A stretch of 64,000 nucleotides of DNA from Bolinopsis microptera (lineage: Eukaryota > Ctenophora > Tentaculata > Lobata > Bolinopsidae): positions 9,252,411 through 9,316,410 of the forward strand of contig NC_087073.1 of the NCBI RefSeq assembly GCF_026151205.1. Reading direction: 5' to 3'. Positions 4,031-63,347 of the stretch are shown in pieces. Both the position numbers and the translations under genes were made by a program. Every line of letters starts with the position of its first letter. Within the stretch, counting starts at the first letter, position 1. Under the pieces are notes generated by a model that ran no database searches, was not told the DNA's origin, and worked only from the letters and a program-made list of their open reading frames with translations.

Positions 4031-4696
4031 TTGACCCCCCTCCCCCCCCCCCCCCGACAATTGACCAAACAAATATATTTATTATACTAACCCTAACAGT
4101 AACCCGATTGGGCGACATCTGTCCGACAGCGACATCTGTCCGACAGCCGAATTGGGGATTTCAGACAGATTTCGCTGTCGGACAGGAGTCGTTTTTGGCG
4201 ACATCTGTCCGAATTTCGGATCATATTGTAATTTCGGTTCACATTCATATTTCACAAACTCACGGGTAATTTCGTGACGTTGCTCCCATTGTTCGAATGC
4301 TGATTTGATCCATTGAGATCTGATCCATCGATACGTGATTGACTATTTAAGGACAGGATTGTGCTAGCCGTACACTAACAAGCTGTCGATCACATCACAG
4401 GACACAGCCTACATGAGTACATATAGGATAGCAGCCGTATGGAGATCAGTTATCGCAATCCACAATGGCAACCAATCTTCAGTAAACAGACCCAGATCTG
4501 CAGCAAACAGACCCGAGAGATCTGGAAACGCTATCCATTCCTGCAAACTAAATCCTCTCTACCGACAACAGTCCAATGATGCTCTGGGACTCTGGATGGG
4601 ACGAACAGACTCGTCGATCATTCCTTTGGGGGACTCCTAAGAACGCAGATCATATGGTGGACGCGGAGCATTGCGTAGTCAACGCCCAACGGTACC

Positions 4697-4935
4697 TTCA
4701 AATCCGCACCTAATCTCTTCCATCAGCTCTTCACAGTCCACGGACTCTTCCCTGACGGCTGGCACCTCCCCCTCTTCTAAGGACTCATTCCTGGAAAATC
4801 GACGACCCTCTACCGCAACATGTTCGAGGAGATAGACACCTGGGCTTCTGAGGCCTTGGGGCTACCAACCACAATACATTCTCATGGACTACGAGCTCGC
4901 CATTCACAACGCAGTTGCTTCATGCCTGCCTGCCT
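4697..4935 (+). pseudogene. Mutator-like transposase relic
   Basis: Reading + strand frames gives LFTVHGLFPDGWHLPL, then an in-frame TAA, then LIPGKSTTLYRNMFEEIDTW. After a frame change comes LMDYELAIHNA. This order (..HG..P.., LL/IPGK.. Y..., D.E.A..NA) is what I know of the catalytic region of MULE transposases. The stop and the frame change make it a dead copy. Family assignment is by eye only. Confidence 0.6.
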
Positions 4936-5151
4936 AGGTCGAAAATAAACTAGTAGTACACTATGGCTCAGATCATATCTCAAATTGGCAATGTTACGTA
5001 TTCAAATTAACAGTTCAGATCACGTCTCTAATTGGAAATGTGTTGTATTGAAATCAGATCACAATTTCGGACAAATGTCGTTTTTTCTGGTACCCTGAGT
5101 CGGACAGATGTCGCTGTCGGACAGATGTCGCTGACAGGAGTCGTGTTACCC

Positions 5152-5334
5152 AGTAACCCTAACCCTGACCCTAACCCTGACCCTGACCCTAACCCTAACC
5201 CTAACCCTAACCCTAACCCTGACCCTGACCCTAACCCTGACCCTAACCCTGACCCTAACCCTGACCCTAACCCTGACCCTAACCCTGACCCTAACCCTGA
5301 CCCTAACCCTGACCCTAACCCTGACCCTAACCCT
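5152..5334. repeat. Interstitial telomere-like CCCTAA/CCCTGA array
   Basis: About 180 bp of alternating CCCTAA and CCCTGA hexamers. The + strand reading frame through it (NPDPNPDP..) is a repeat artefact, not a protein. Confidence 0.9.
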
Positions 5335-6363
5335 GAATTGACCCCAGTGTAATTACATGGGGGGTCAATTGTCGGGGGTAGATTGCATCAGGGGGTCATT
5401 TGTCGGAGGGGGGGGGGGAGGGGGTCAATTGTTGCGGTACCGTACTATATAAGTATATAGCGTACTATACCTCTCATTTGGAGATTCAGTGCCATGGTTG
5501 TCAGCTTTTTATCAACTCCGGCCAATTTCTTGACTGCGCTAATCAACTCGGTTTTATTGACTTTTAGTTTTGGTGCCAAATAAGCAAAATTCCAAATAAC
5601 TTAAGAACTTAAAAGAAAGATAAAAGAAACTTGCCAATTTATAAATTTAACGCTGCCATAATAAGATTATAGCATTATAATCTATTTGGCATGGATTGAT
5701 AATTTTATAACAAATCCTGCAAAGTTAATGGAAAACCTGCCGATTTAACTTTATCACTGCCGTAATCTATCCGGCAAGGATTGATAATTTTATAAAAAAT
5801 CCTGCCAAGTTAATGGAAAACCTGCCGATTTAACTTTATCACTGCCGTAATCCATCCGGAAAGGATTGATAATTTTATAGCAAATCCTGCCAAGTTAATA
5901 GAAAACCTGCCAAATAACAAATACCTGCGCTGTTGATGCAGGATCACTAGTTAATTAGGCAGGTTTTGACATAAAAAATTAAGAGAAAACCTGCGGATTT
6001 AGTGTAATATACTGCTGATCTGGACAGGGTAAATTAGATTACTAGGCAGGAGTGGTAATTTCGCAGTCTTCGCTATTAACTGGGCAGGTTTTAGGTTAAA
6101 TTCGCAGTGGCAATGGCTGGAAGGGGCCTCAGTTACTATGGTAGTATTTTATCCGGGAAAACGGTCCCATTGAATGTCATGACCATATATATTTCATTAC
6201 TGCAACATTATTATATCAAGCATCGCAAAGTCCACACAACGAATTAAAATATGATCCTATGGCAGATTAAAAATGAAAGAATGTCTCGCGAGCACAAATA
6301 TTGCATCGGGTCCGGATGTGGGTACGGACAGCATCGATGCTGTAGTTGTTGCTGTTGTTGCAG

Positions 6364-21428: not shown

Positions 21429-23976
21429 TCAAAGCTCTGCTCGGTCAGAGTCACGTGCTAAACTCTCAATTTTAGCCTGCCTTATTAGAAATATCAGAGT
21501 TTCATCATTCGATATTAAGTCTATTTCTGTAGGGTCAAGATGTTCGTCTTTGTTGGCATCTAACTGATCGAATACTGTTAACCACTCCTCGTCTGTCAAA
21601 TCGTGTGAATCACCGATTACTAAATCGTGGTAATGTGTGTTAAAGTTTTAACAGCCCTTGGATATCCGTGATTACATACAAGTTTGTTCACTGATCAAGA
21701 TTAGCTAGGAAAAATTTGAGATTCAAAAAAATGTTTAAAGTAGTATTCTGAGAAAATTACCTGTTTCCAGAAGATCCAGAAGATCATCTTTGACTGCGGA
21801 CAAAGCATCGAGAAAATCGATCTTAGGGACCCGACCCTCAGTTCTCATAGACAAAGAACTCCACATTACAAGTCTGAGATTCCCTGACAACTCTCTAGCT
21901 CCTTCTGTATCCTTGATTTCCTCCTCTCCAGCTTTACCTATATCCGAGTCAGTTCTGTAAAAAATCTTGTCTAAGAACCAATATATAATGATGTTTATTG
22001 TGTTGTAATTTACTGATATCGGTAACATTTCTAACTCTACCGAAATCCATCAGGAAAGACAAACATGATAAAATCCCCTGAAAATGTATGTTTGTGAACT
22101 GCTAAAATCGCAAATCACTCAAGGTCCCTCTAATGAAGGTATTCCTAGACTTGTTTATCTTACGTCATAGATACAGAGCCCCAGTCAGTGTCATCTGGAG
22201 AAATACACTCGAATGGTGTCTTGTAGATCTCCCACCAAGCATTAATTGCTATGTTCCTGAAATTGGACATCAAGTTAGAGCAAATTGTTTGGTTGGCGTG
22301 ACGTCAAACAAGTAACGCTTTATTACAACAAGTCATTATCAATTATCACCCATTATGATTATTTGCGAGGTTACAAACCTCCCCCAGGATCTAACTGTGT
22401 GTCCCCAGAAAGTAGGAATGTAGACACAGTCCCCAGCTTCGATAGTAGCATTGTAGAAAGTAATTTCACCGAATCCTGGGTACTTGTTTAGGTTTACCGA
22501 GTCCACATCTACAGATGAGAAAGAGCCCTCCCGTTTGAAGTGACCTAGTTCCATTTCTGACCTGTTCGCGAGAATCAGCTGTTTCTTTCCTGAGAGATGG
22601 TAATATTATCATATGATAATATTATAATATGGGCATTATGTTGAACATTGGTCCCTTTACACTTACATAATTTATTTATATTATGTAACCGTGGCAATTC
22701 TTAAATTATGAACATTTCCGTACTCAAATAGGTGTATTCCAGTTATAAACCATGGTCCATGTGGCATGGACAAAGTATGTGAATTATATGTGATTTGACT
22801 AATTTACGTGACCTATTTGCGTAGCAAGTGATTTCTTTACGTAGATTAGCCTAATTATTCGAACGAAGCACATGGTTAATCACAAAGAATTTATCAATTC
22901 AGCATGATGAATCTATAAATACCAGTTATCACATTTTCGTCTAATTTTAAATGCAAAATTTCACAAACCTTTTATAAGGCAGTTAAGATTTTCATAGTCG
23001 TCGTAGTGCCAAACACTTTTAGTACCACCGCTACTAAACCACATAACCAGATCATCCATGAGTTTCGTCAGGACAAACTTGCACCTTAAAGGACCAAATA
23101 TTGGTAGATCCCCACGTAGAAATCTGAAATTTAAGAGGGTGGAGTCAGAAGTTCTTTGGAAGAACCTTTTATGACGTACACGGAATTCCTTCTTCCGGCT
23201 GCGTCATCTAACGGCTCATAAAACGATTAAAGGCAATTTGATCCTCATATTTTAATGGCATAAAAGATAACAGATACAGAGAATTTCCCAGAACCACCTT
23301 TAAACTTACGTAGCCATGGAATTGGAGCAAACGTGGTTTGAGCTTATTTCCAAAAATCACAGTACCTAATAAAATAACCTCTTCTAAAACTATAATTTAG
23401 GACAATACAACAATGTCTCATCAACTCACTTTGGCAATCCAGTTACACAGTATAAATCCTCTTCGTTGTAGCGTTTTATATAATCAGCAAATGGGATGGG
23501 CTCTTGACCTCCTTCACGGGTTTCTTTTTTACCAAGCTCGTACTGGATCATCCATTTAGTGCTGAAGTAGTTGTTTAATTAGGATAACGAAAATTAGTTT
23601 AATCAGGAGAATCAGGAATGGTAGACTATCAATTATTTTGACTTAATCCAAGCTTCTACGATCAATGATTTCTCGACTAACGCTAAATAAAAAGCAGTGA
23701 AATATCTATAAAATTAATTTAAAGGATAAGAAATACAGCGAACCTCTCTTCAAACGATAAGAAATAGTCATCAGTCCATCTTTGGAATGCACGAAATTCT
23801 CTAGCAGCCCCCTTAAATACCACAGGCCGGCCAGGTATCACATAATCCCGAAAAAACTCCGTGGGTTTGAGAAATCCCTGTATCACAGGTACAGGGAGAG
23901 CCGGGGACTGCTGACCGAGAGGAAGTTGTTCATAGAAACCTAGCAGCTGTAGAATGTAGTGTAGAATATGTAACAT
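21429..23976 (-). CDS. JmjC (cupin-8) hydroxylase with EF-hand, gene A
   Basis: Seven exons: 23,744-23,976; 23,430-23,561; 22,969-23,123; 22,379-22,589; 22,164-22,256; 21,761-21,954; 21,429-21,619. They total 1,209 nt (402 residues) in phase. The JmjC/cupin-8 core has SSGGTKSVWHYDDYENLNC with the Fe(II)-binding H161-x-D163, and PTFWGH giving the distal His237. These mark a 2-oxoglutarate/Fe(II) dioxygenase of the protein-hydroxylase type. The last exon has one canonical EF-hand loop, DANKDEHLDPTE (360-371). The N-terminus (MLHILHYILQLLGFYEQ) is weakly hydrophobic and may be a signal peptide, but the start is the least certain part of the model. The C-terminus is DRAEL, similar to but not a standard KDEL signal. 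It is a paralogue of gene B at 33,505-36,157: both have a 93-nt exon after the catalytic region. Its substrate is unknown. Confidence 0.85.
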
Positions 23977-32235: not shown

Positions 32236-32718
32236 CTACATGACACTGCACCCCTTCTTGCTGGCTGCCTTGTACCGTTCCAGGAACTCTAGCTGCTTGC
32301 CATTGATCGCTCCCTTGCGGTGTCGCCTAATAAACTCCACTGCATCCTCATACCGCATACCACCGTCAATCAGAGCAATAGCAACGAGAACAGGGGCCCT
32401 GCCCAGACCAGCCACGCAGTGCACGGCCACTGCTGTTTGGGGCTTGTCGGAGAACATCTTCTTAACCAGGATCAGCCAATCCTTGATGATGGTGGCGGGG
32501 GGTTCCGCTCCATCCTCAAAACTTAGCTCCCGAACAATGATACCCTCTTTCTCAAACGCCTGATCGTCGTAAGTCGGTTCACACACACGGACCACCATGG
32601 AGGTGTTGTGTTTCTTGAGCTGCTGGATGTACTGCTTGACGTTGGAACGGGTGGGCCTGTCAGTGATGACAAACCGCATGTTTCGGTGGACAATCTCGCT
32701 GGGGCCTACTTTCATCAT
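32236..32718 (-). CDS. PTP4A: Protein tyrosine phosphatase type IVA (PRL)
   Basis: A complete 160-residue protein from one exon, the normal length for PRL phosphatases. The active-site P-loop HCVAGLGRAP gives the nucleophile Cys101 and Arg107. The general acid is Asp69 in LSFEDG. Cys46 (VRVCEPTY) corresponds to the regulatory Cys that forms a disulphide with the catalytic Cys in known PRLs. The C-terminus KKGCSVM is a CaaX box (Cys157) for farnesylation behind a basic stretch, so the protein should sit on inner membranes or the plasma membrane. PRLs regulate magnesium transport through CNNM proteins and promote growth. A Met-Met start is present and the second Met is an equal candidate. The coding region has no intron, unlike vertebrate PTP4A genes, so a retrocopy origin is possible. 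Confidence 0.95.
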   Translation of the reverse strand: MMKVGPSEIVHRNMRFVITDRPTRSNVKQYIQQLKKHNTSMVVRVCEPTYDDQAFEKEGIIVRELSFEDGAEPPATIIKDWLILVKKMFSDKPQTAVAVHCVAGLGRAPVLVAIALIDGGMRYEDAVEFIRRHRKGAINGKQLEFLERYKAASKKGCSVM

Positions 32719-32732
32719 CTTGTATCTGTCTC

Positions 32733-32790
32733 TTTATTACATGTGGTGAGGGAACGGCTGTTTTGTGGTGAGGGAACGGCTGTTTTGTCG
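32733..32790. repeat. Direct repeat in PTP4A 5' leader
   Basis: GTGGTGAGGGAACGGCTGTT occurs twice in tandem immediately upstream of the PTP4A start codon. Confidence 0.85.
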
Positions 32791-33504
32791 TTCAAGGCAG
32801 GATGTGTTGGCTCTTACACCATTCAGCTACAATCGACTTTAAGTTGAGCGTATCGAGCATATAACTACCAATCACCATACAATCTACCTAGAGGAATGCC
32901 TGTTGTTAGAAATGGGGATCGTGAAATTGGCAGTAGTTATTATATTTGGGTATGGTTTCATAAAGGATAGATGAAAGAATTTTACAATTTCGTAATTATC
33001 GTGAGCGCAATTTAGGAGTATAGCATTGAGGCGTTTGAAGTAAGGAGTACATGTTATTGGAATATACTTTATGGGCATACCTGTTTTATTTTCATGTCGT
33101 GGACATTCAACACGCAAACAACATTCAAACAATGTATATTATATTGTATTCAGTAATTAATTTCGTCAAGATTCGTATCAAGATTCGTATCAAAGAATCA
33201 TCAAAATTAATCATAATTCACTTTAAAATAACGAAATAATTGAAAAAAAAGCAGTACGTAATTTAATAATTTTTAAAAGAATAAATAAAGCTAGCTCAAA
33301 ACTTAATTTTTTTAAAAAACATAAAATTGACAGCTTAACCATGACGTATGCGGGTATCAGACCTAGATATTGAATGTCACAATTTACCTTTCCTAGCCAG
33401 AGTTAAAAAACCAGTACATGTGTGACACATTACATAACCAATACATGAATTACACAAATTGAATCCGTAGCAAAGATACATAATATTGAAAAGTTTATTT
33501 GTAT
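32791..33504. other. Spacer between JmjC gene B and PTP4A
   Basis: AT-rich. No gene or RNA seen. A small direct repeat CAAGATTCGTAT lies near 33,170. Confidence 0.55.
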
Positions 33505-36157
33505 TTACAATTCATCTTTGAACTGACGCAAAAACTTTGGGAAAACAGTTAAAATATTGTCGATTTCAACGTAGTTGAGAAGTTCATCCTCGTCTGAGTC
33601 CAGCAGCTTGAACAATCTTCTGATATCCGCGTCTGTAACTGCAATGAATCTCGGTGTTACAATCGCCAGCTTGTTTCACAATTACCAGATAACTATTAGG
33701 AAAGGGGCACATGTAGTAAAGATATGTAAAGTATAATAAGGTACAGCATACTCACAGACAGTTACACAATACAATGTTAATCTACAGAACAATGACTACT
33801 GAGTACGGGTATCATACCCACAGTGCACTTTACAGTGCCATTAGTCATGTGTAAAGTCATGGTATACAAAAGACAACATAATTTGGATTTTATGGCAGTC
33901 AAATGGACATAACATTATGTATTATATGCAGATTTTATGTACCAGATGTCAGACCATTTGTACAGGTCATAACAATTACGCAAGTTATAATTGATACTAT
34001 AAGATCCAATAATTGTAACAAATGCATTTGGACAGAATTAGTGTACTCACAAGTTTCGTCAGGTAATAGATTAATTTGACAGATTGCTATGGACTATGGA
34101 CTTGTGCAGTTTTAGCGTGATAAGCTCAAGGAAAATGACATCATTTCAATAGAAAATTTGGCAGAAATTCATGCTTACAAGAAATGATGTCATGATGAAT
34201 CATACATAAGTACTATGCTACGCTATGTTATTTTCAATGTTTACAAAGGAAATCTTTGTCCGTACCAACTAATTTTACATATTTAAAAAATAAGAACACA
34301 ACATAATTATCGCATTCTAAAGTTAAGTCAGAGAAGGTAGACATAGAGTGTGAGGGAGAGCGTCAATGAGTCGTTATCTTATACATTATAAATGATGTAC
34401 ATTTAGGTGAATAGCGGTAAGGAGAGGGACGAAGTAGTCGGAGAAGTGAGCCTGAGAATTCGAATATTTCGGTATTTCTAAATCAATGAAACTGGCATTC
34501 TACCAAATTTTATTGGAATATCGCCAAATTGTAGATGGTTCAAATATCAGTGTTTACAGTAATTAGTGATGTAGCTGCAGAGTGTAGGTGACATAAGGGA
34601 GAGCAGGAAACAAAATGACAAAGTGGCCGAGAAGACGATGAGAACAGTAGATGAGTACAGAAAACTGAAGAGATAAGGGATCTCAATTTATTTAAGGTAT
34701 TTTACGCCAGATCTCCTTCTCTCAGATATCATATTATTGTGGGACATTGGGTTTTCTTACAGCAGATAGATTAAACAGAATATGATATAATAAATATAAT
34801 ACATACTATGATGCATCCCTCTTTCGTCTAAAGCTGGTCCAACACACTCCAGAAATCCGGGCCAATCTATAGTTTCCTCAGTGTACATTCTGTCGTGCAT
34901 GTAGATCATCTGATGTGCAGCTTCACTCAGAGGCATATCTCCGTCATCATTTTCATCACCATCTCTTAAAATGAAACAAAAGTTTTAAATTTCTATTAAC
35001 TATCATGTATTGCATATCGTAAAATCCTACAAAAAGTAGCACATTTCAATGCTACAAAACTACAATTTAAAATATAAATAAAGTGCTATTCCTAACATGA
35101 CAGTACCTAAAGTGCAATTGATCCAATGTGAGCTGGGTTTTATCCTCGCACACCAATGGTGATCTGTAGGACCTCCACCAGATGTTGACAGCCAGGTTAC
35201 TGAAGAAATTATCGTTATCATGCATCTTGCTTTGTCTAGACAATTTCCAACTCTTCTTTATTACAACAAGTAAAAAGTTCTGCTGAACAATGAATGTCCA
35301 CATATTTTAACTATATAATGTTTGTGTTAAATTAGTTTAAAATTAACCTCAATTATGCTATTTCTAGCTCTGTTAAACATTTTTGTTCACCAAGCATTAA
35401 GCATATCAAAATCTAACCTGCCAATGGAGTTTACATGATGGAACCAAAACCAAGGAATGTACAAGCAATCCCCAGCTTCCATGGAAACATTGTAGAATTG
35501 TATGTCTTTAAAGCCTGGATACTTATCTGTATCCACATTTTCAACATCAACTGAACTATAGAAACCCTCTCGATTATCAATGTGAGCTTTCTGGTGAGTT
35601 TCACTTCTATTAGCCATGATGAACCATTTTTTACCTCTCATGAGACAATTTATATTTTCATATGCATCATTGTGCCAGACACTTTTTGTTCCCCCACTAC
35701 TAAACCACATGACATTATCCGCAAGAAGGTTATTTACAACAAAGGGACAATTTAATGGAAGGTGCAAAGGAATATCTGATGCCAAAAATGGGGGTACTGG
35801 ATTTACATAATAGATGTCTTCTTCTTTATAAACGTTCAAGAATTCTGAAAATGTGAGATGTTTTGATCCATCATTTCTGTTTTCTTTTTTTCCTTCCTCA
35901 GCAAATACAGTAAACGTATCTGATTCTGGTAAGGATTGAAAATATTCATCTGTCCATTTTGTGAATGCAGGAAAAGTCTTTGCAGCTCCTCTGAATAATA
36001 CAGGAGTTCCGGGAATAACATATTTAGTAAAAAACTGATCTGGAGGAATGAAGGTGTCAAAGACATCAACACTTTTCTGAGGTCCTGACTGCAGTCCAAT
36101 GTAATCGGCTTGTACAGCCAAAATTATGATAAAAAGATTGATAAGAATGTTTTCCAT
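33505..36157 (-). CDS. ER-resident JmjC (cupin-8) hydroxylase with EF-hands and KDEL, gene B
   Basis: Four exons: 35,418-36,157; 35,107-35,199; 34,807-34,964; 33,505-33,638. They give 1,125 nt, 374 residues. Residues 1 to about 17 are a signal peptide (MENILINLFIIILAVQA). The cupin-8/JmjC domain (about 30-247) has H162-N-D164 in TKSVWHNDAYEN and His240 in PWFWFHHV, the Fe(II) triad of 2-oxoglutarate hydroxylases. GKKWFIM supplies a likely 2OG-contacting Lys. Two canonical EF-hand loops follow: DENDDGDMPLSE (281-292) and DSDEDELLNYVE (344-355). The protein ends exactly in KDEL, the ER-retrieval signal. Together these predict a Ca2+-binding protein hydroxylase in the ER lumen. Substrate unknown. 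Gene A is a paralogue, and here most of the catalytic domain is in one large exon that is split into four in gene A. Confidence 0.92.
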
Positions 36158-36557: not shown

Positions 36558-36734
36558 CATCCTCTATTATATACAAAAAGATGAGCCAAAATGGACTTAA
36601 GCTTATTGAATTATGGCTGTTTATGGCCAGTACTTGCAGGAGCAAAGTGATAAAAATATGATTTTGAAAATACCAGCTCAATTTTGATACTATCTTGTAT
36701 GGCTGGCTAGTTCTAAACAAAACGTGAGGCATAT

Positions 36735-38850
36735 GAACAAGTAAATGAGCTTTTGTCATCATTACAGTCTTATATGAGAGCGAATAAGTTACATATAAAC
36801 ATGTCCAAGTGCTGCTACATACACTTCAAACCCACCATGGCAGGTTCTAAGTCAGAGATTTTATCACACCCTGAAGTTGTACTAACTATAGACAACTTTC
36901 CAATCAAAAAGGTTTCATCCGCAAAATTTCTGGGTGTTATAATTGACGAGAACCTATCATGGGAAGATCACATTAAAGCTCTTAAGCGAACTCTAAATCA
37001 TTCCACATCCACTTTATGTAGATTTCGCTGCTCTTTTCCAGAATTCCTACATCAACAATTATATTATACCCTGTTCGAATCACAACTTTCTTACTGTATA
37101 TCTGTATGGGGTGGGGCAGCGAAGCAACGTATAAGCTCAATATTTACTGCTCAGAAGTACTGTCTCAGAGTACTATTTGGTGATAGGCTGGCGTACCTTG
37201 ATAAGTTTAAGACTTGTGCACATACTTGTGCACATACTTTTGGATCTTTTACAGCAGCAAATACTGAACTGAGGGCCAAGGCTCTCCGTGCTCTCTATGG
37301 CCTCAAAGGCAATATCGTCAAAGATGCCCTCTCTCACCGTTCCCTAAACATTCTATTTGACTCTCTAATAAAACCGATACTGCTCTATGGCTGCCAAATC
37401 TTATGTCCTCACTCAAAAACCATGAGATACCTCTCCAAAACAGATAGCAAAGCCAACCCCCAGCATACTCTCAGGTACATCTCACAAGACCACTATGAAA
37501 GATTCCACCTCAAGTTTATCAAGTGGTCCTTGTCTGTCCATTCAAAAGCATCAAATATAGGCTGCTGGGGTGAAAGTGGGCGCCACCCCCTCTTCTTTGA
37601 AGCCTGCAAACTTGCAATAGATTTCTATAGTCGTCTTGAAAGCACTGAAAATGAACTTCTCTCCGCTGCATTTCACGAGCAGATTATGCTGGGCCTTCCA
37701 TGGTACACCAACATCTCTAATCTTCTCACCAAATATAACTTCCCCCACTCATCCTCTTCAAAATCCAAGCTCTCTACCCAAATCAGTCACAACATGAGGG
37801 AAGAATTTGTGGATACCTGGAAATCTGCCAAGGCATCCTCACCTAAATTAGAATTCTACAATCAAATTAAACATGATTTTGAACCAGAAACATACTTAGG
37901 AGTGGTTAAGATCCCCGATGCTCGGAAAAGCTTAACAAGGTTTCGTATTAGCTGCCACAATCTTTACATTGAGAGGGGCCGTTACGAAACCCCCCTAGTA
38001 CCAAGAGAACATCGATGGTGCACTTTTTGCTTTTTCAGCAAGGGGCTTAAGCCTATTGAGGACGAAATTCATGTTCTAACTGACTGTTTACTCTACTCCT
38101 CAGTTAGAGAAAAATTTAACTTCCATCCCAAAAATATTACTGACCTAGCCGGTTTGCTATCCGATAAAACACTAGACCCTACAAAATTTACTGCCACAGC
38201 AAGAGCAATCCATTCAATTCTCTCTGTGAACGAAAATTTTACAGCCTACTATAAGAGCCCAGATTTCCACTCAAATACTGGCCAATGCATAATGCTATAG
38301 GACCTCAAAAATAGTATTATAAAACATTTCTATTTTATCCCTACACATTTGTAAATAACTAGAATTGTGTAACCTTAAATTATTTCAGAATTATAACTAT
38401 TGTGAATTCAATAAAATAATTATCACTTTTGTATCCTTGTATCCTTGTATCCTTGTATCCTACTAGGCCTATAGGAAACCAGAAACTTGACCAAAACTTT
38501 TTCATAAAAGAGCACACCAAACCGATATTCAAACATAACAATATTCTAGCTGTACAAAATCTCTATACATACCGTGCAGTTACCTCGAGCTCTACAAGAT
38601 AATGAAATTCCGTGCTCCAATATCTCTACGTATGAGGGTTACACATGTTCGTCAAGGAAACCCTGCCTTCTAATCTGTCAGGCAGACCCACCTGACAACC
38701 ACAACACTAGATCAACTAAAATGTTTAACATCTTAACCCCAAAGTTCAGAATGACTGACTTTACTACTAGTGTAATGTGCTTGCGAGGAAAGCTAAAACA
38801 TGCGCTATTAGCTGTTTCACGTTGTAGCCCTGCCGCGCACTAACTTGCGC
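36735..38850 (+). mobile_element. LINE 3' fragment (reverse transcriptase), interrupted
   Basis: The first segment, up to about 37,237, encodes the C-terminal part of a non-LTR reverse transcriptase: MRANKLHINMSKCCYIHFKP, then KFLGVIIDENLSWEDHI, then KFKTCA. The sequence resumes at 38,461 with RPIGNQKLDQNFFIKEHTKP and ILAVQNLYTYRAV. After a stop and a frame change comes NTRSTKMFNILTP. Between these lies another LINE (37,238-38,460). Truncation, a frame change and stops make it non-functional. The clade looks Jockey/CR1-like by these motifs. Confidence 0.8.
37238..38460 (+). mobile_element. 5'-truncated CR1-like LINE inserted in another LINE
   Basis: It encodes about 350 residues of a LINE ORF2 C-terminus (LRAKALRALYGLKG, FDSLIKPILLYGCQI, and the terminal Cys/His module WCTFC..IHVLTDC). 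It ends in four 8-bp TTGTATCC repeats at 38,429-38,460, like the short 3' tail repeats of CR1/L2 elements. ACTTGTGCACAT is duplicated at the left junction (37,212-37,235). The coding frame happens to stay open across this junction, so a 515-codon ORF at 36,753-38,300 fuses two unrelated LINE copies. Confidence 0.82.
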
Positions 38851-42957: not shown

Positions 42958-49902
<6,945 letters not shown>

Positions 49903-60451: not shown

Positions 60452-61224
60452 CTCCTACATTAGGATGTTAGTCAGTGAAACCTCGTACTGATTCAAATGT
60501 AATTAAAGCACCTTCAATCTGGAATTTTTACAATAACATCAATGGTGATAAATTTAGAACCAAACGAAACTTTAGAAAAGATTTTCTACAGATTATTCTA
60601 CAGATTATTCTACAGCAAATTTTCTACAGAATCGATTTAATTATATAAGACCTCTTATCGACGGGGTAAATATTTGTCTTATATCATTAAAAGCACCTGG
60701 AGAAAATGCCGTTCAATAATGGCGGCACTCTAAAGCTTATTTTATGGTTCTAGGGTCATAAATCATATTATGATACGAGTGATCTCAGCTTTCATTTGCA
60801 TATCAGTGAGCAAAACTTGGTACAGCTGATGAAGAATGAAGTGCAACGGTTTGTAGAAAAGTCACATACGACGAGAGAAATTAGAGTTTATCTTAATCCT
60901 GAGTATCGAATTCATTATCAGTAAGCTTAGCATACCGTATTTAAGTGAAATACTCAAATTCTGTTTCTCTGCAGCCAGTATGATGCTATATTTTTCAAGT
61001 TATCAGCAGGGAAAATTAAGTGGAAATTCTAAATGAAAACTGAAGGTGGTCTACGACCGGGTAAAGGCCTTGCCAATTTCTCGATTGCATTGATAAGGGA
61101 CAAATATTGCAGAGCAAGTGAGCAACGTCCTTATCAGTATTTTGTTATAATGATAGGTTAATTTGTGATAATAAGGAAGCCACGTCTCCATATTCACTCA
61201 TTTATCGTACATTGCTTTTAAAAG
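60452..61224. other. Divergent promoter region, SIN3 and PAN-like gene
   Basis: A 773-bp spacer between two divergently transcribed genes, so it holds both promoters. A 13-bp unit (GATTATTCTACA) repeats three times near 60,585-60,625. No TATA box that I would defend. Confidence 0.55.
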
Positions 61225-63347
61225 ATGTTGGTGGTCGTTCTCTTTGGATTTTTGCTTGCTCTATTAGAAGGGGTACCAACTCCTCAACAATGCTCTCGCG
61301 ATAGTGTTGATTTTTGGGGGGCCGATATTGGATTCAATACTGCTGGAAGTTTGGAGAAATGTGAAAAAATATGCAGAGAGATGGCTACATGTGCCTCTCT
61401 GACTTTCAGGTCAGTCAGTCAGTCAGTCAGTCAGTCAGTCAGTCAGTCAGTCAGTCAGTCAGTCAGTCAGTCAGTCAGTCAGTCAGTCAGTCAGTCAGTC
61501 AGTCAGTCAGTCAGTCAGTCAGTCAGTCAGTCAGTCAGTCAGTCAGTCAGTCAGTCAGTCAGTCAGTCAGTCAGTCAGTCAGTCAGCCAGTCAGTCAGTC
61601 AGTCAGTCAGTCAGTCAGTCAGTCAGTCAGTCAGTCAGTCACATGTTAAGATATAAGATATGTTCTAAGAACAATATTGTTTATTCAGGGCGTCTAGCGA
61701 CTCCTGTTGGCTGAAGAACAAAAGAGGTGGACTCAGAGGACCTTATGTAAAAGGTGGACTAGTCAGTATGAACATGGATTGCGGAGACAAAAAGTTTGAC
61801 CAGTCTTGTATCGAGGAAAACACGGATTACTGGGGAGCTGATATTGGAGGGAGAAGAGCTCTCAACTTCGACCAGTGTGAGACCTTCTGTAGAGACGCCG
61901 AGGAGTGTGTCTCTATCACTTATAGAGCTGCTGATTCTCAGTGCTGGCTAAAATACAACCGCTTTGGAGCTTACGGTCCTTCGCCAGGCGATGGACTTAC
62001 AAGTCTGAATATGAACTGCACAGAACCTGCTAAATCTGATGGTGGCTGTAAAAGGATTGATGTCGATTTTTGGGGGACTGACATCCGTTATAAGAAAACT
62101 GACAATTTGGAGGAATGCGAAAAGTTGTGCAAAGATACTGATGGGTGTGTTTCATTGACATACAGGTATGTTTTTCTTATTGCAGGAAACCCGTGAACTT
62201 AATTTCTTTCATATAGGCTTAAAATTTGATAAAATTAAAGATCCTATCTCATTTATTTGGTTTCAGGACTTATTGTTTATAGAGTTAATGAACTGAATTT
62301 CAGATCGTCAAACAGATTCTGCTGGCTAAAGAACAAAAGAGGTGGACTCAGAGGACCTTATGTAAAAGGTGGACTAGTCAGTCTCAACATGGATTGCGGG
62401 GACACAAAATCTGATCAGACTTGTATCGAGGAAAACACGGATTACTGGGGAGCTGATATTGGAGGGAGAAGAGCTCTCAACTTCGACCAGTGCGAGACCT
62501 TCTGTAGAGACGCCGAGGAGTGTGTCTCTATCACTTACAGAGCCGCTGATTCTCAGTGCTGGCTTAAATACAACCGATTTGGAGCTTACGGTCCTATACA
62601 AAATGACGGCCTCACAAGTTTGAATATGGACTGTGCAGCACAACTTAGCTTTGAAAAAGGATGTGAAAGACTTGATATAGATTTCTGGGGGGCTGATATT
62701 GGGTTCCAGACTACTGAGAGTGTGGAAAGTTGTGAAGAATGGTGTAAAAAGTCTCTTGGCTGCGCTTCTCTTACTTATAGGTTTGTTGATTTTATCTTTT
62801 AATTTTGTCCAGTGATATAAACCTAAGCAAAATCCATTTCGATTTTTCGTGGGTCTACTTTGACACTGGTTATCATACAACATATTAGTTTTAATTTGAA
62901 ACTTTGATCAACTTGAATTAAAGAGTTTCTTACCACTTTTATCCCAAATCATGGTTTTTAGGGAAAACCATAAACTTCTCTATTTCATATGCTAATTTCA
63001 GGGAGTCTGACTTCTCTTGTTGGCTGAAGAACAAAAGAGGGGGACTCAGAGGACCTTATGTAAAAGGTGGACTAGTCAGTCTCAACATGGACTGCGGAGA
63101 CAAAAAGTTTGACCAAACTTGTATCGAGGAAAACACGGATTACTGGGGAGCTGATATTGGAGGGAGAAGAGCTCTCAACTTCGACCAGTGCGAGACCTTC
63201 TGTAGAGACGCCGAGGAGTGTGTCTCTATCACTTACAGAGTTGCTGATTCTCAGTGCTGGCTAAAATACAACCGTTTTGGAGCTTACGGTCCTTCACCAG
63301 GCGATGGACTTACAAGTCTGAATATGGATTGTCCGACTGAAGCATAA
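61225..63347 (+). CDS. Secreted protein of six tandem PAN/Apple-like Cys-rich repeats
   Basis: Four exons: 61,225-61,409; 61,689-62,165; 62,304-62,780; 63,002-63,347. They total 1,485 nt, 494 residues. A signal peptide (MLVVVLFGFLLALLEGVPT) is followed by six repeats of about 75-80 residues with the pattern D(F/Y)WGADIG..., CE..C, C.S(L/I)TYR, CWLK, GP...GL.S.NM.C, six Cys per repeat. This fits PAN/Apple-type adhesion modules, though the assignment is by eye. Each intron falls at the same point, after the TYR of a repeat and in phase 2. Exons 2 and 3 are both exactly 477 nt and nearly identical in their middle parts, which points to recent exon duplication or conversion. Such proteins usually act outside the cell in binding proteins or glycans. 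Whether this one does is unknown. Confidence 0.85.
61410..61641 (+). repeat. GTCA x58 microsatellite carrying the intron 1 donor
   Basis: 58 uninterrupted 4-bp units with one GCCA variant near 61,586. The first unit supplies the exon 1 donor (TTTCAG then GTCAGT), and every later unit repeats the same CAG/GTCAGT context. All frames are open through it, so ORFs rich in SVSQ are artefacts. Confidence 0.95.

Follow-up and report, generated by a model that had tools for sequence, protein, structure and literature searches.

A JmjC-domain gene of Bolinopsis microptera with an EF-hand-like tail and a C-terminal KDEL, encoding a candidate ER-luminal hydroxylase

The JK gene, its paralogue and relatives in the genome

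The window, i.e. the whole stretch of 64,000 nucleotides of Bolinopsis microptera DNA that was analysed, contains a gene on the minus strand (positions 36157-33505; here called JK), which we rebuilt from the sequence as four exons encoding a protein of 374 amino acids. Exon 1 (35418..36157; 740 nt) holds the start codon, the signal-like N-terminus and the bulk of a Cupin_8/JmjC domain, and exon 2 (35107..35199; 93 nt) holds the last JmjC strand (SNLAVNIWW). Exon 3 (34807..34964; 158 nt) encodes the first EF-hand loop and, judged by eye, a possible degenerate second EF-like segment. The last EF-hand, the KDEL sequence and the stop codon are in exon 4 (33505..33638; 134 nt). All three introns are of the GT-AG type, with phases 2, 2 and 1, and an AATAAA polyadenylation signal on the same strand (33494..33499) starts at the sixth base past the stop. 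An alternative acceptor, with exon 2 starting at 35250, would yield 391 instead of 374 amino acids. We rejected this start because 35199 fits the splice point of a paralogue, which is spliced at the same place, and keeps the JmjC strand (HHVNSIG-SNLAVNIWW).

This paralogue, which the initial annotation had not noted, was found by tblastn of the JK protein against the window. It lies on the same strand (21429..23976), 9.5 kb away from JK, and consists of seven exons (23976-23744, 23561-23430, 23123-22969, 22589-22379, 22256-22164, 21954-21761 and 21619-21429) encoding 402 amino acids, with a Cupin_8 domain followed by an EF-hand-like tail. The two proteins are 43% identical over 356 aligned columns and share their domain order. 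Each of the three JK introns has a counterpart in the paralogue at an aligned position and in the same phase (2, 2 and 1), and three extra introns of the paralogue fall within the region equal to JK exon 1. The 5' end of the paralogue is uncertain, and an upstream exon may be missing from our model.

The identity, domain order and intron places and phases shared with the paralogue bear out the 374-residue reconstruction of the initial annotation, and on sequence evidence JK is confirmed as a real gene for which the original observation holds. Because the introns recur at aligned places in the same phases, the KDEL-bearing last exon of JK is homologous to the last exon of the paralogue. This homology largely answers the objection that the true last exon could be a different one.

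The 5' half of JK is intronless and its 3' introns are kept; either JK would have lost introns or the paralogue would have gained them. Intron loss by reverse transcription is usually 3'-biased; the pattern in JK is the reverse.

Pfam assigned residues 39-257 of JK to Cupin_8 (E 1.3e-36; 127.3 bits vs a cut-off of 27.4), and the JmjC model itself scored below threshold (21.2 vs a cut-off of 24). The corresponding Cupin_8 match in the paralogue had an E value of 1.6e-33. We also searched the assembly of 264.65 Mb in six frames, so that gene counts are lower bounds. Cupin_8 gave 10 matching places, three of which are pieces of one gene, and the JK protein as query gave 13 places, eight of which are exons of JK and its paralogue. 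One relative elsewhere in the genome (C5:14669019-14672297, plus strand; hereafter the C5 gene) has six exons encoding 513 amino acids, starts with MILLLTLLITL, contains HKD...H, matches Cupin_8 (3.2e-30) and is 35% identical to JK over 232 columns. Its long tail had no Pfam match. In a FastTree analysis of six Cupin_8 domains of the genome, from which an intron-split gene on C6 and a JMJD7-like gene were left out, JK, the paralogue and the C5 gene formed one clade with a support of 0.997. The best match outside this clade among the six domains was a separate gene (L001), which we take to be JMJD5-like. Furthermore, viral and genome contig collections yielded 5, 68 and 70 pattern matches, and none of these was a relative by tblastn.

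Two other cupin genes were seen in the course of these searches. The C6 gene is represented by fragments (L011, ~4210-6200) with HYD and DYQWDMLYPGDCIFIP...THQ; within 19.8 kb no C-terminus could be located, and the gene was not counted. Several repeat copies, ~2.3 kb apart, lie downstream of the fragments. The other gene, presumably JMJD7-like (C2:9326474-9328150), is on the same contig as JK at a distance of ~38 kb, which brings three Cupin_8 genes within ~55 kb.

The putative Fe(II) ligands H162 and D164 of JK lie in an HND motif (residues 162-164; 35666..35674, minus strand); at this place the paralogue has HYD and the C5 gene HKD. The distal ligand, H240 (35438..35440, minus strand), is aligned with a His in both relatives. 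Hence, all three residues are invariant between JK and the paralogue, and HxD...H is also kept in the C5 gene. Moreover, JK and the paralogue have a GKK stretch in common at an overall identity of 43%. At the level of sequence, the presence of a Cupin_8/JmjC domain in JK is beyond doubt, in agreement with the Fe(II)/2OG core with HND...H that had been annotated initially. A PDB search identified JMJD5/KDM8 as the best solved relative of JK (5e-21), followed by JMJD7 (9e-16), TYW5 (C2orf60) and FIH; JMJD8 was absent from the PDB matches. An AlphaFold2 model of exon 1, built on a five-row alignment of window fragments, reached a mean pLDDT of 35 and was set aside.

Conservation of these residues bears on the idea that JK encodes a catalytically dead protein, in which the JmjC fold would be kept for scaffolding and which would act in the ER as a Ca2+ buffer or chaperone-like protein. 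Proteins with EF-hands and a KDEL-like end do exist among the residents of the ER. However, with HxD...H and GKK kept in two paralogues at 43% identity, and HxD...H in the C5 gene as well, we regard a dead enzyme as improbable.

The EF-hand-like tail and putative ER-targeting features

Using the whole JK protein, Pfam detected EF-hand_6 (E 0.0039) and EF-hand_7 (E 0.017), both under the gathering score. The 111-residue tail alone improved these values to 2.6e-4 for EF-hand_7, in two stretches, and 1.6e-3 for EF-hand_6, again under the gathering score. For the paralogue, EF-hand_7 gave 0.16 with the whole protein and 6.1e-3 with the tail alone. EF-hand_7 was thus the top family on both tails, at sub-threshold scores in each case. 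An NCBIfam scan returned a single insignificant match (E 0.11). In a PDB search with the JK tail, calcium-binding protein 4 (0.007) and calmodulins (0.03-0.08) were among the best 60 of 125 matches. Designed Pizza proteins headed this search (best 9e-8; the first ten rows were all Pizza), and we judged these matches to be due to chance because they add up weak repeats and contain no stretch that is significant by itself.

Two loops were found in the JK tail. The first, DENDDGDMPLSE (residues 281-292; 34922..34957, minus strand), is EF-hand-like and has no matching loop in the paralogue; the second, DSDEDELLNYVE (residues 344-355; 33565..33600, minus strand), has the counterpart DANKDEHLDPTE in the paralogue. 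In both JK loops, positions 1, 3, 5 and 12 are taken by Asp, Asn or Glu. The initial annotation had described two canonical EF-hand loops; two loops with ligands at these positions are indeed present, but they are near-canonical and their profile scores remain below threshold. The word 'canonical' is too strong because neither loop matches the strict PROSITE EF-hand pattern.

Shuffling of the JK tail produced two relaxed loops in 18-19 of 20,000 shuffles. The paralogue tail keeps one EF loop of the two, and at least one such loop appeared in 1848-2160 of 20,000 shuffles. Therefore, homology to the JK tail outweighs the loop of the paralogue itself. In JK, the tail would bind Ca2+ in the ER lumen; such binding would probably serve folding or the docking of a client, and a regulatory role is possible.

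The N-terminus of JK, MENILINLFIIILAVQA (residues 1-17; 36107..36157, minus strand), is strongly hydrophobic, with a best 11-residue Kyte-Doolittle window of 3.2 vs 1.4 elsewhere in the protein. The signal peptide of the initial annotation can be retained in the sense of a signal-like start, based on hydropathy, with putative cleavage after A17. The start of the C5 gene is likewise strong (2.9) and that of the paralogue is weak (1.7), so that two of the three relatives, JK included, have a strongly hydrophobic start. Such a signal peptide would direct the JK protein into the secretory pathway, where it may become N-glycosylated. One sequon, NRS (residues 183-185; 35603..35611, minus strand), is common to all three proteins: in its alignment column the paralogue likewise has NRS, and the C5 gene has NNT. 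A second sequon, NVS (residues 223-225; 35483..35491, minus strand), corresponds to NAT in the paralogue and is absent from the C5 gene.

The JK protein ends with FKDEL (KDEL at 33508..33519, minus strand). The exact KDEL that had been annotated is therefore present, and it has a chance of ~3.4e-5. The paralogue ends with RAEL and the C5 gene with KTEL; for each of them, the chance of ending in xxEL is 0.8%. KDEL fits the PROSITE ER-retrieval pattern, and RAEL and KTEL fall outside. For the latter reason we gave slightly less weight to our best explanation, in which KDEL retrieval would hold the JK protein in the ER lumen. The signal-like N-terminus combined with KDEL makes an ER-luminal JmjC enzyme, as originally proposed, the natural reading of this gene, as a prediction.

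Relation to HRJD genes and other hydroxylases

JK resembles the genes of the HRJD family, which was reportedly named by Cao et al. in 2019. HRJD genes are described as having a JmjC domain plus an EF hand motif and nothing else, typically in two or three copies per species, with KDM8 as their closest paralogue and with molecular functions that 'remain unknown' (PMC11295675). In the same source, flies lived longer when these genes were expressed in the stem cell lineages of the adult gut, and regeneration was impeded when they were expressed in the developing wing disc (PMC11295675). In planarians, RNAi of HRJDa is described as causing head loss without amputation, and RNAi of HRJDa or HRJDb as causing deaths after amputation (PMC11077316). 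The initial annotation had named no characterised human protein with the full architecture. That the combination of JmjC and EF-hand is undescribed is not supported, as it is already published with exactly both parts (PMC11295675), and the predicted ER address is what appears to be new.

Compared with the published description, JK is similar in consisting of JmjC and EF-hand only (its EF-hand scores being below the Pfam cut-off) and in having KDM8/JMJD5 as its nearest relative, both by PDB match and, outside its own clade, among the six domains compared. The copy number is also similar: besides JK and its paralogue, the clade includes the C5 gene, in which Pfam found no EF-hand. In contrast to the predicted ER address of JK, the terms 'endoplasmic', 'KDEL' and 'signal peptide' are absent from the main texts of PMC11295675 and PMC11077316. 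Literature queries for a fusion of JmjC and EF-hand with KDEL or a signal peptide gave no such protein, where 'EF-hand' as a query misses the spelling 'EF hand'; nor did the titles retrieved for JmjC with KDEL, or for JmjC with EF-hand and hydroxylase, point to such a fusion.

We consider it probable that JK encodes an HRJD-type, ER-luminal JmjC Fe(II)/2OG hydroxylase with a Ca2+-binding tail, retrieved by its KDEL. Most likely, it would hydroxylate a side chain of a secretory or membrane client. Several findings count against this explanation, namely the sub-threshold EF-hand scores, the single loop and the weak start of the paralogue, and the unmatched tail of the C5 gene. The different tail of the C5 gene, without a Pfam match, would also suit another origin, in which the ER-luminal JK protein is no orthologue of HRJD and belongs to a lineage-specific family that combined JmjC and EF-hand separately; EF-hands are common modules. 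We think such a separate origin unlikely, however, since JK agrees with the HRJD description in its domains, its number of copies and its KDM8-like catalytic domain. On this view, JK would be an orthologue of the planarian genes HRJDa and HRJDb (GenBank LC408963 and LC408964).

The HRJD authors discuss a potential role as histone demethylases and, with 3xFLAG fused to the N-terminus, report the proteins in the cytoplasm and not in the nucleus (PMC11295675). Together with JMJD5/KDM8 as the nearest solved relatives, these statements speak for JK being a cytosolic or nuclear KDM8-type JmjC hydroxylase or demethylase, in which the hydrophobic start and KDEL arose by chance. For JK we find this very improbable in view of the low chance of KDEL (~3.4e-5), the hydrophobic starts on two of the three relatives and the sequon common to all three. 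Moreover, the published localisation is not decisive because a tag at the N-terminus could mask a signal peptide.

The ER-luminal hydroxylase that we propose for JK would be a new hint at the function of HRJD-type genes that is easy to test. More tentatively, and with somewhat more doubt than confidence, the HRJD family as a whole might consist of ER-luminal, Ca2+-binding JmjC hydroxylases rather than chromatin demethylases. If so, the published cytoplasmic staining would show the ER or be due to the tag at the N-terminus, and the loss of HRJD genes in poorly regenerating lineages would amount to a loss of protein hydroxylation in the secretory pathway. With HRJD proteins in the ER lumen, the search for substrates would shift from chromatin to secreted and membrane proteins.

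P3H1-type prolyl hydroxylases, with KDEL, and P4HTM, with EF-hands, are also 2OG hydroxylases of the ER; they belong to a different oxygenase family and neither is JmjC. AspH, too, is from a different oxygenase family than JmjC. JMJD5/KDM8 has the closest solved catalytic domain with the same HxD...H layout, but it is not known to have a signal peptide, EF-hand or KDEL. By analogy, AspH shows that an ER-localised 2OG hydroxylase with predicted EF-hand motifs can exist (PMC6817910); in contrast to JK, AspH is described there as membrane-anchored and as having TPR domains. JMJD8 likewise shows by analogy that a JmjC-fold protein can reside in the ER lumen, where it is described as Endo-H sensitive and as having an N-terminal signal peptide (PMC5684140). 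JMJD8 is JmjC-only, and the main text of this paper does not contain 'EF-hand', 'EF hand' or 'KDEL' (PMC5684140), whereas JK departs from this make-up by its EF-hand-like tail and KDEL.

Other reading frames in the window

Between JK and the paralogue, a tyrosine phosphatase reading frame ending with CSVM was found on the minus strand (32236-32733), with Y_phosphatase over the cut-off. We take it to be of the PRL type with a CaaX box. Just upstream of JK, the plus strand contains a reading frame of 527 residues (36717-38297) with a weak match to reverse transcriptase (E 0.007, below the cut-off), which is likely a retroelement remnant. An open frame of 1204 residues on the plus strand (46288-49899) has LDL-receptor class A repeats and appears 7TM-like by eye; it runs into a simple repeat of ~0.65 kb that is open in several frames. 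Finally, tandem reading frames of one kind (WGADIG...SITYR) occupy positions 61222-63344 of the plus strand, and in one of these (61669-62193) Pfam identified PAN domains.
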